Positions 26,704-39,132 of a stretch of DNA of 64,000 nt are shown in pieces. Under the pieces are notes generated by a model. The model was not told the DNA's origin. It did no database searches and saw only the letters and a list, made by a program, of their open reading frames with translations. Position numbers and translations under genes: made by a program. Numbering within the stretch: position 1 is the first letter of the stretch; the number at the start of each line of letters is the position of its first letter. The DNA is taken from assembly GCF_020217425.1 (NCBI RefSeq), contig NZ_CP084090.1, forward strand, positions 1,736,001-1,800,000, read 5' to 3'. The DNA is from Halomicrobium urmianum. GTDB taxonomy: Archaea > Halobacteriota > Halobacteria > Halobacteriales > Haloarculaceae.

Positions 26704-27525
26704 TCAGTACTGTTGGCTCTGCTGACCGCCCTGTTGACCGAGTTGCTGCTGACCGCTCCGCTGGCGGTACTGCAGGCCGCCGGACTGCTGGCCGCCGCTC
26801 TGCTGGCTGCCAGACTGCTGGCTCTGCTGCTGGCCGCCCTGGGACCCCTCCGGCAGGAATCGGCCGGTCTGGGGGTCGCGCGGGCGCTGCTCGGCGATGT
26901 CGTGCATGCGCTGGCGGAACTGCTGGGAGTGACGCCGGTCCTGCGTGCCCTGGTCGGCACCGCGACCCTGCTGGCCGAACTGCTGCTGCGAGGGCTGCTG
27001 TTGGGTCTGGGGCTGCTGTTGCATCTGCTGGCCGCCCTGTCGACTCTGCTGACCGTACTGCTGGCTCGGCTGCTGGCGACTCTGCGGTCCGCCGCCGAAC
27101 TGCTGCTGGCTCGGCTGCTGGCTCGGCTGCTGGCGACTCTGCGGTCCGCCGCCGAACTGCTGCTGGCTCGGCTGCTGGCTCGGCTGCTGGCGACTCTGCG
27201 GTCCGCCGCCGAACTGCTGTTGGCTCGGCTGCTGGCGGCTCTGCTGCTGTCCGCCCTGCGATCCGCCGATCGGCAGGAACTGGCCGGTCTGGGGGTCGCG
27301 GGGCTGCTGGCGGGCCTGCTGGCTCCGCTGCTGGCGGAACTGCTGGGAATGACGCCGGTCCTGCGTGCCTTGGTCGGCACCGCGGCCCTGCTGGCCGGGG
27401 AAGCCCGCCTGCTGGCCCGCGGGCTGCTGGCTTTCGGGGACATAGCCCTGTTGCTGCTGGGGCTGCTGGTTCTGCTGGCTCTGCTGCTGTCTGCCTCGAC
27501 CGAAGTTCTGGTTGCCGTGGGACAT
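26704..27525 (-). CDS. Gln/Ser/Gly-rich low-complexity repeat protein with duplicated RDPQTGxFLP module
   Basis: A 273-residue protein (ATG at 27525), about 40% Gln and almost free of hydrophobic residues. A module of about 52 residues occurs twice, exactly 140 residues apart (45-96 and 185-236). Each copy has QQGRGADQGTQDRRHSQQFR and RDPQT-G(Q/R)-FLP followed by GSQGGQQQS. Between them, a 19-residue unit with the core QQQFGGGPQSRQQPSQQPS is tandemly repeated about three times (Phe at 105, 124 and 143). The C-terminus is QSGG/QSQQY-rich. It has no signal peptide or membrane helix. The composition resembles prion-like or phase-separating proteins. The function is unknown. A TATA-like box and a leader hairpin lie upstream. 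Confidence 0.82.
   Translation of the reverse strand: MSHGNQNFGRGRQQQSQQNQQPQQQQGYVPESQQPAGQQAGFPGQQGRGADQGTQDRRHSQQFRQQRSQQARQQPRDPQTGQFLPIGGSQGGQQQSRQQPSQQQFGGGPQSRQQPSQQPSQQQFGGGPQSRQQPSQQPSQQQFGGGPQSRQQPSQQYGQQSRQGGQQMQQQPQTQQQPSQQQFGQQGRGADQGTQDRRHSQQFRQRMHDIAEQRPRDPQTGRFLPEGSQGGQQQSQQSGSQQSGGQQSGGLQYRQRSGQQQLGQQGGQQSQQY
27058..27237 (-). repeat. 57-nt tandem repeats within the Gln-rich gene
   Basis: About three near-identical 57-nt units encode the 19-residue repeats and are conserved at the DNA level (one silent change is visible in the unit near 27220). This indicates recent expansion by slippage or unequal exchange rather than old divergence. Confidence 0.8.
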
Positions 27526-27609: not shown

Positions 27610-27850
27610 ATGTGGACGAGTTTCTAGGCCTTGCACACGCAGTACAGTCATACGTCAATCGACCGGGCAGCGGGTAATCGCCAGAGGGGAGCGGTCCGAT
27701 TCCGCCCTGCCAGCCGACCGCTGGCCGTTTGAGTCCCACGCGACTCCCGGTCGCGCGGTCCGTCGGGTCGCCCGACCGTCGCGGCGGGGCCGGGACGACC
27801 GGGTCGAAGGGCGACTGGAACCGGCCGCCGCTGGGCTGCGCGAATCGGGG

Positions 27851-37387: not shown

Positions 37388-37390
37388 GTT

Positions 37391-37442
37391 CACTGGTACG
37401 TCGTCGCTCGGTTACTCACTGGTACGTCGTCGCTCGGTTACT
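37391..37442. repeat. Perfect 26-bp tandem duplication at the kae1-bud32/uspA junction
   Basis: The 26-bp unit starting CACTGGTACGTCGTCGCTCG is repeated exactly twice, at 37391-37416 and 37417-37442. The second copy extends into the last codons and stop (TAA, 37438-37440) of the kae1-bud32 gene. Identity of the copies points to a recent duplication. Confidence 0.85.
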
Positions 37443-39132
37443 GGTAGCGGCCGCGCCCCTCCACCTCGCGGAGGCGGTCGAGCACGGCGTCGGCCCGTTC
37501 GCTCTCGGCGCGATAGGCGTCCTCGGCGGCGTCCCACAGCGGTCCGGGGTCGTCGGCCGTCCCCGTCAGCGACTGGGCGAACACGTGGAGGTCCATCGCG
37601 TGGTCCTCCTCGTCGCGGGTGTAGTAGCCGAGGCCGAAGTCGATGAGGAACGTTCGCGGGTCGTTCGCTGCACGTACTCTGACGTTCCGCGTCGTCGGAT
37701 CGCCGTGGACGAACCCGGCGTCGTGGATGCGGGCGAGGTACCGGCCGACGTCCCGGACGGCGTCCACCGAGAGGCGGTCCCGCAGCTCGGCCTCGCCGAC
37801 GTACTGGAACTCGATGCGGGCCTCGTGCGGGTCCACGTCGTAGACCACCGGCGTCGGGACGCCGTGGCGGCGCGCCTCGCTGGTGAGACGGGCCTCACTG
37901 CGGGTCCGCTCTGTCCGGAGGCGCTCGTCCAGCTCTGGGTGACGGTAGGTCCGCGGTAGTCGCCGCTTGATCACCCGGTCGCCCTCTATTTCCACTGCGG
38001 CCTCGGCCCCCTGAACCGGCTGCCCGTCGGTCGCTTCCACGCGCTCGAACCGGCGCGCCGCACCGACGGCCTCGCCGGTGCGCCACGTGACGTCCACCTC
38101 GTCGGGCCGGAAGTCGGGGTCGACGGCCGACTCCGCGACCGGAGTCGCGTCCCCGGCGGCGTACATCTTCGCGCCGAGAACGGCGATCATGCCGGCGTTG
38201 TCCCGCAGGAACCGGGCCTCCGGCGCGAAGAAGTCGGCCCCGCGCTCCTCGCACATCTCCGCCAGCATCCCCCGGAGGCGGTCGTTCTGGCCGACGCCGC
38301 CGCCGAGGACGAGCTCGTCCGCGCCGGTCAGCGCCAGCGCCCGCTCGGAAACCTCCGTCAGCATGGCGAAGACGGTCTCCTCCAGGCCGCGGCAGACGTC
38401 CTCGACGGGCGTTCCCCGGTCGGAGGCCTGCTTCGCCGCGGACATGATCCCCGAGAACGAGAAGTCCATCCCCTTGACGACGTAGGGCAGCTCGACGTAC
38501 TCGCCCTCTCTGGCGTGCTCCTCGACCTTCGGGCCGCCGGGGTGGGACCAGCCGACGTGTCGGGTGAACTTGTCGATGGCGTTGCCGACGCCGGTGTCCA
38601 TCGTCTCCCCGAGCACGCGGTAGCGCCCGTTGCGATAGCCCAGCAGGTGCGCGTTCGCGCCGGAGGCGTTCAGGCAGACCGGCGCGTCGAACCCGGCGTA
38701 GTGGCGGCCCACCTCCAGGTGAGCGACCATGTGGTTGACGCCCACGAGGGACACGTCGAACCGCTGGGCGACGGCGCGGGCCGCCGTGCCGACGATGCGC
38801 AGGCACGGGCCCAGCCCGGGTCCGCGGGAGAATGCTACCGCGTCGATCGGATTCGCGGGGTCCTCGCCGGCCTCCTCGGCACGCTCCTCGGCGTGCTCGA
38901 TCGCCGTCTCGACGACTTCGGGAATCGCCTCGCCCATGTGCTCGGCGGCCTCGCGCGGGTGGATGCCGCCGCTCTCGGGCTGGTAGGGATCGCTCTCGAT
39001 GAAGACGCGCTCGTCGTCGGTGGCGCTGCTCGTTGGATCGTTCGTCTCGTATACGGCCGCACTCGCAGCCCACGCGGTCCCCTCGATGCCGAGCACGCGC
39101 AGGCGGTCCTCCGACGGCGCCGAGTCGCTCAT
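37438..39132 (-). CDS. Fused Kae1-Bud32 (KEOPS: tRNA t6A threonylcarbamoyltransferase plus kinase)
   Basis: A 564-residue two-domain protein. The N-terminal Kae1 (residues 10-335) has LGIEGTAWAASAAV (ATP/metal core start), FSRGPGLGPCLRI, GVNHMVAHLEV (metal His-x3-His) and EDVCRGLEETVFAMLTEVSERAL. From about 350 to the end is Bud32, with VIKRRLPRTYRHPELDERL, FVHGDPTTRNVRV (catalytic Asp and Asn) and IDFGLGYYT. The fusion is common in Euryarchaeota and makes the universal t6A at position 37 of ANN-decoding tRNAs. The gene lies downstream of rps27ae/rps24e in the same direction. Confidence 0.96.
   Translation of the reverse strand: MSDSAPSEDRLRVLGIEGTAWAASAAVYETNDPTSSATDDERVFIESDPYQPESGGIHPREAAEHMGEAIPEVVETAIEHAEERAEEAGEDPANPIDAVAFSRGPGLGPCLRIVGTAARAVAQRFDVSLVGVNHMVAHLEVGRHYAGFDAPVCLNASGANAHLLGYRNGRYRVLGETMDTGVGNAIDKFTRHVGWSHPGGPKVEEHAREGEYVELPYVVKGMDFSFSGIMSAAKQASDRGTPVEDVCRGLEETVFAMLTEVSERALALTGADELVLGGGVGQNDRLRGMLAEMCEERGADFFAPEARFLRDNAGMIAVLGAKMYAAGDATPVAESAVDPDFRPDEVDVTWRTGEAVGAARRFERVEATDGQPVQGAEAAVEIEGDRVIKRRLPRTYRHPELDERLRTERTRSEARLTSEARRHGVPTPVVYDVDPHEARIEFQYVGEAELRDRLSVDAVRDVGRYLARIHDAGFVHGDPTTRNVRVRAANDPRTFLIDFGLGYYTRDEEDHAMDLHVFAQSLTGTADDPGPLWDAAEDAYRAESERADAVLDRLREVEGRGRYQ

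Follow-up and report, generated by a model that had tools for sequence, protein, structure and literature searches.

A glutamine-rich gene with a duplicated module

The window analysed here, a 64,000-nucleotide stretch of Halomicrobium urmianum DNA, carries on its minus strand a Gln-rich coding sequence for a protein of 273 amino acids (26704-27525; ATG at 27525, TGA stop ending at 26704). The ATG at 27525 is favoured as the start over the ATG at 27651 because homologs begin with an MSxxNQ-like sequence. Gln accounts for 105 of the 273 residues (38.5%), and the protein further contains 16% Gly, 10% Ser, 8% Pro and 24 Arg (9%), no Lys, few aromatic residues and almost no Asn; no signal peptide was seen. 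Among the 68 predicted genes of the window, which come from a simple codon-usage script and have approximate starts, the median Gln content is 1.9% and the second highest 4.9%, and the median pI is 4.5 as against 11.8 for the Gln-rich protein. Haloarchaeal proteins are typically acidic.

Based on residue positions and on comparison with homologs, a first copy of a module occupies residues 44-85 (GQQGRGADQGTQDRRHSQQFRQ...RDPQTGQFLP; 27271-27396, minus strand), and a second copy, ending in DRRHSQQFRQRMHDIAEQRPRDPQTGRFLP and delimited by residue positions and the AlphaFold model, occupies residues 184-225 (26851-26976, minus strand). GQQGRGADQGTQDRRHSQQFRQ begins at residue 44 in copy 1 and at residue 184 in copy 2, and RDPQTG at residues 76 and 216, giving a spacing of exactly 140 residues. 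In the segment that separates DRRHSQQFRQ from RDPQTG, the two copies are not alike. The motifs that close the modules, RDPQTGQFLP in copy 1 (27271-27300) and RDPQTGRFLP in copy 2 (26851-26880), both on the minus strand, are of a type enriched over shuffled sequences, as detailed below. The modules flank a tandem array of 3.1 copies of a 57-bp unit (27058-27236, minus strand; Tandem Repeats Finder, 99% match), which appears in the protein as a QQQFGGGPQSRQQPSQQPS-like unit of 19 residues recurring at residues 102, 121 and 140. Toward the C-terminus lies the motif GGLQYRQR (residues 249-256; 26758-26781, minus strand), which is common to Gln-rich proteins of the stress islands described below. 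The earlier note on this DNA had described a product of about 40% Gln in which a duplicated 52-residue module flanks about three tandem units of nearly identical DNA and in which two conserved islands, DRRHSQQFR and RDPQTG-R-FLP, lie within disorder; this description is borne out except for the length of the module, which is about 42 residues. Elsewhere in the window, a perfect two-copy tandem repeat with a 26-bp unit (37390-37442) lies near the start of the minus-strand gene at 37438-39132.

The protein is predicted to be nearly all disordered, as the same note had supposed: the AlphaFold model has a mean pLDDT of 48 and contains only one helix, at residues 193-212 in copy 2 (26890-26949, minus strand), together with short bridges where the two RDPQTG turns lie. 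AlphaFold modelling of the module alone gave a single helix spanning residues 7-30 of that fragment, after which the chain turns at RDPQTGRF. A PDB search with the module profile returned designed proteins only, which we take as chance matches. The search of Pfam gave the window protein only two weak unrelated matches, both under the cut-off, and that of NCBIfam gave none; identity with a known family was therefore rejected.

The open reading frame is a conserved coding gene

Synonymous and nonsynonymous changes were compared over a 31-residue core of the module across 13 copies drawn from ten genomes. For the frame of the Gln-rich protein, the pooled pS was 0.51 and pN 0.28, and copy 2 compared with its same-genus homolog in genome G005 gave a pS of 0.45 and a pN of 0.06. 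Four of the other five frames have the opposite sign, and the remaining one, which reads the opposite strand, shows a smaller excess (0.42 versus 0.29). Because the synonymous excess is clearest in the frame of the Gln-rich protein, we regard the long open reading frames that this DNA has in its other frames as by-products of the CAG/CTG-rich repeats. The frame-specific excess also rules out a non-coding repeat locus shaped by codon drift, which had been raised as an alternative. Based on the mostly synonymous changes between homologs and on the presence of module homologs in 10 other genomes, these sequence comparisons indicate that the open reading frame is a real, conserved coding gene under purifying selection.

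Relatives share short motifs on variable linkers

In a sample of 392 Halobacteriales genomes, drawn from a larger order, the module profile matched 11 genomes including that of H. urmianum, so that the absence of homologs from other haloarchaea, which would have spoken against the gene, does not apply. A search with a single module matched 5 of 59 genomes, again including its own; one of these matches (G047) was rejected as spurious, there being no Gln-rich open reading frame at that place. In GTDB contigs, the named matches belong to Halosimplex aquaticum, H. carlsbadense, H. pelagicum, HArc-gm2, H-GB1-1 and Haloarchaeobius iranensis. Collections of plasmid, phage and viral contigs gave no match to the module, and a viral or plasmid-record origin was rejected on this basis. 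The module-bearing homologs are Gln-rich, 230-382 amino acids long and mostly basic, and they carry different repeat arrays, in agreement with the proposal that the array evolves quickly.

Besides the window protein, the genome of H. urmianum encodes at least four others that are Gln-rich, and two of these have the RDxxGxF motif in common. A module-bearing paralog lies on contig C2, a relative at C1:1376246 has five RGGxHS...RDQQGQF-type motifs, and further Gln-rich proteins are encoded at C1:704692 and C1:1859846. By eye, the paralogs with repeated RGGxHS...RDxxGxF units resemble KGG repeat proteins, which are GsiB-like bacterial stress proteins. Three RGGxHS...RDxxGxF members had no Pfam match at an E value of 0.5 and one had no NCBIfam match, and the window protein matched a KGG profile in neither Pfam nor NCBIfam.

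The 30 Gln-rich proteins gathered in this analysis contain 36 occurrences of RDxxGxF (0.27 after shuffling), and 11 of them have a GGxxYxQR-type C-terminal motif (0.21 after shuffling); because both patterns were drawn up after viewing the sequences, these ratios are descriptive and not a test. Both the family and its anatomy are well supported; the latter consists of short conserved motifs (an MSxxNQ-like start, HSxQ...RDxxGxF modules and a C-terminal GGxxYxQR) set on fast-evolving Gln/Gly/Ser linkers. The window protein belongs to this family, as defined here, by its Gln-rich chain with two modules and by its C-terminal motif, and its gene lies outside the stress islands, in which only some relatives are found. 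We also considered that the repeat locus might be selfish or neutral and, whether or not it is translated, serve no purpose in the cell. The 99%-identical array and the sparse distribution point in this direction; the synonymous excess, the conservation of the modules across families and the conserved N- and C-terminal motifs argue against it, and we regard it as extremely improbable.

Counts of CAG patterns in relatives were dropped as a proxy for the family, many of the matches being one recurring QQQMQQMMQQ-type sequence that, by eye, is probably prefoldin. Distant module homologs in three genomes of one genus (G203, G165 and G124; L039-L041) hold the same place, not far from a gene that by eye resembles archaeal release factor aRF1. 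The sequence GGQPRDPETGQF is found in an acidic island protein that is not Gln-rich, as well as C-terminally in a Gln-rich protein (L043:5558-6076, L092:8050-8727), and this motif can thus exist outside a Gln context.

Stress islands and Gln-tailed proteins in relatives

The neighbours of the window gene, a methyltransferase and a cyclase-like gene, are ordinary; some relatives have close homologs of the methyltransferase, and none has a homolog of the cyclase-like gene. In G005, G398 and G275, the homolog lies at most ~1.1 kb from the gene for a small Cys-rich protein, which has Gln-rich ends in G005 and G398 and is Csp-like in G275; the closest solved relatives of the Cys-rich proteins of G398 and of H. 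urmianum are Csp3 copper storage proteins. Most module-bearing family members are not beside a Csp.

Tracing the Cys-rich protein over the 392 genomes and reading its surroundings revealed a recurring island in several genera (for instance at L091, L164, L084-L089, L168 and L170), often on contigs of 110-270 kb that are probably plasmids. In varying sets, the island contains OtsA and OtsB for trehalose synthesis, an MscS-like channel, a BrkB-type membrane protein, SPW, PRC-barrel, DUF5789 and CBS proteins, a FAD-Rieske protein and at least one Gln-rich protein. Of the 30 Csp-like loci examined, 10 have a separate Gln-rich open reading frame no more than 1.5 kb away; these come from seven genera (loci of the same genus cannot be counted as independent), and G014, found separately from this set, adds an eighth genus. 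None of the seven tail-less, mostly high-Cys Csp loci of the set has such a neighbour. A ubiquitous control gene has a Gln-rich open reading frame nearby in 3 of 30 cases, two of which are the same stress islands and the third of which is in the genome of H. urmianum. A small protein that adjoins several Gln-rich genes (L129:7310-7669) was rejected as an island marker since it is present in 311 of the 392 genomes and rarely near Gln-rich genes.

In several unrelated folded proteins of the islands, the folded part is accompanied by blocks with about 30-60% Gln: Dps (G005, G022), many Csp-like proteins, CBS-pair proteins (G022, G398) and phasin-like proteins (G005, G398, G026, G022, G014), the last being a by-eye label for a protein with no match in Pfam or NCBIfam. 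By comparison, the ordinary Dps proteins of H. urmianum contain 3-4% Gln, and most ordinary phasin-like homologs have no Gln tail and end in acidic coils. Across the genomes with such islands, genes for Gln-rich proteins repeatedly lie together with genes for Gln-tailed stress proteins. In H. urmianum, the window gene, its paralogs and one Gln-tailed Csp gene occupy separate, dispersed places.

The partners found in the islands bear on where the window protein might act. A role in the envelope, one of the functions suggested previously, loses ground because these partners are cytosolic-type proteins and the window protein has no visible signal peptide. Alternatively, the protein could work together with the Gln-tailed phasin-like protein on the surface of polyester or other storage granules and form no body of its own. 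The phasin-like genes in five islands would fit such a role, but their assignment is by eye and a PHA synthase gene was not identified in the islands in an unsystematic look; we consider this very unlikely. It is also conceivable that DNA or RNA is the target of the basic, Arg-containing modules and that the Gln linkers bridge several sites, for instance together with Dps on stressed nucleoids. This would agree with the high pI of the window protein, the basic nature of most family members and the presence of Dps in two islands; however, the protein matches no nucleic-acid-binding family in Pfam or NCBIfam, its charge density is low overall (net 0.05 per residue), and neither the Csp nor the phasin-like partners are known to be connected with DNA; we consider this explanation quite unlikely.

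A possible scaffold of a stress kit

Our working hypothesis, to which we give somewhat less than an even chance, is that the window protein is the disordered scaffold of a haloarchaeal stress kit and co-assembles with Gln-tailed clients. The recurrence of its relatives beside Gln-tailed stress and metal-storage proteins suggests assembly together in the cell, and the evidence for co-assembly is circumstantial, consisting of the similar Gln-rich tails of the stress proteins adjoining family members. In this scheme, the family protein would act as a multivalent scaffold in which modules and Gln-rich linkers hold similarly tailed stress proteins by like-with-like contacts, with the helix and the RDPxTGxF turn serving as sticky sites. 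The resulting assembly, which could be a condensate, a gel or a granule coat, would concentrate metal-storage and protective functions in conditions of low water activity, metal or oxidative stress. Against a scaffold speak the position of the window gene outside the islands and the lack of a Csp beside most module-bearing members; likeness in composition also need not imply interaction, and the tails possibly stem from a local mutational or codon habit.

The main rival explanation is a freely soluble protectant resembling LEA proteins and hydrophilins, whose disordered, hydrophilic chain would protect other proteins or hold water when the cell dries out or meets an osmotic shift, with no specific partners. 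Hydrophilins are defined by a Gly content above 6%, a GRAVY below -1 and a mean hydrophilicity above 1, and high Asn plus Gln has been noted for them (PMC4190154). The window protein resembles them in its Gly content (16%), its GRAVY (-1.99), its predicted disorder and the osmotic-stress context of its relatives, whose islands encode trehalose synthesis and osmotic channels. It differs from them in a mean Hopp-Woods hydrophilicity of 0.27 and in its multi-copy conserved motif. The low hydrophilicity weakens membership of the hydrophilins but not the idea of a hydrophilin-like way of working; moreover, a generic protectant leaves unexplained the conserved RDPxTGxF modules and the Gln tails on neighbouring folded proteins. 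We regard a non-specific protectant as a serious but unlikely explanation.

Gln-rich low-complexity domains have a uniquely high occupancy in eukaryotes compared with archaea and bacteria (PMC11132505). The window protein shares with Q/N-rich prion-like and condensate-forming proteins its high Gln content, its predicted disorder and a low-complexity composition with up to 38 Q/N per 80 residues, and to this extent the description of it as prion-like in the earlier note stands. It departs from them in being almost devoid of Asn, poor in aromatic residues and basic with no Lys, and in its predicted conserved helix-plus-turn modules embedded in the chain. Our literature search, which most subscription journals lay outside, found nothing relevant on haloarchaeal Gln-rich or polyglutamine proteins.

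An extension of the scaffold hypothesis is that the Gln tails are a shared assembly tag by which the scaffold gathers tailed Dps, Csp3-like, CBS and phasin-like proteins into a shell-less, stress-induced body; we offer this as speculation that is probably incorrect in this form. If true, such a body would be a composite protective compartment of a kind not described in archaea. A basic, Gln-rich, multi-motif stress-island family, together with like tails on unrelated folded proteins, would make it possible to test composition-based protein co-assembly at very high salt and would open a new way to study haloarchaeal survival of drying and metal stress.

The island neighbours proposed as clients of the scaffold, as distinct from the window protein, match solved Csp3 four-helix bundles and Dps ferritins but are Gln-tailed, and the Gln-tailed Csp-like proteins (L053-L074) have ~9 Cys compared with 13-15 in the tail-less, ordinary haloarchaeal Csp examined. 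Because this number is lower than in classical Csp3, copper storage by the island Csp is putative, and these proteins may hold less copper or handle it differently. Genus g46 of family f17 has a second group, with no Gln-rich neighbour nearby. In H. urmianum, the Gln/His-rich protein at C1:1859846-1860688 (L131:4847-5689) is encoded on the same strand as a nearby ferritin-like gene and contains three copies of a (L/V/I)T(E/D)(R/Q)V(E/Q)(D/G)A(V/I)PG(L/M)G-type motif.
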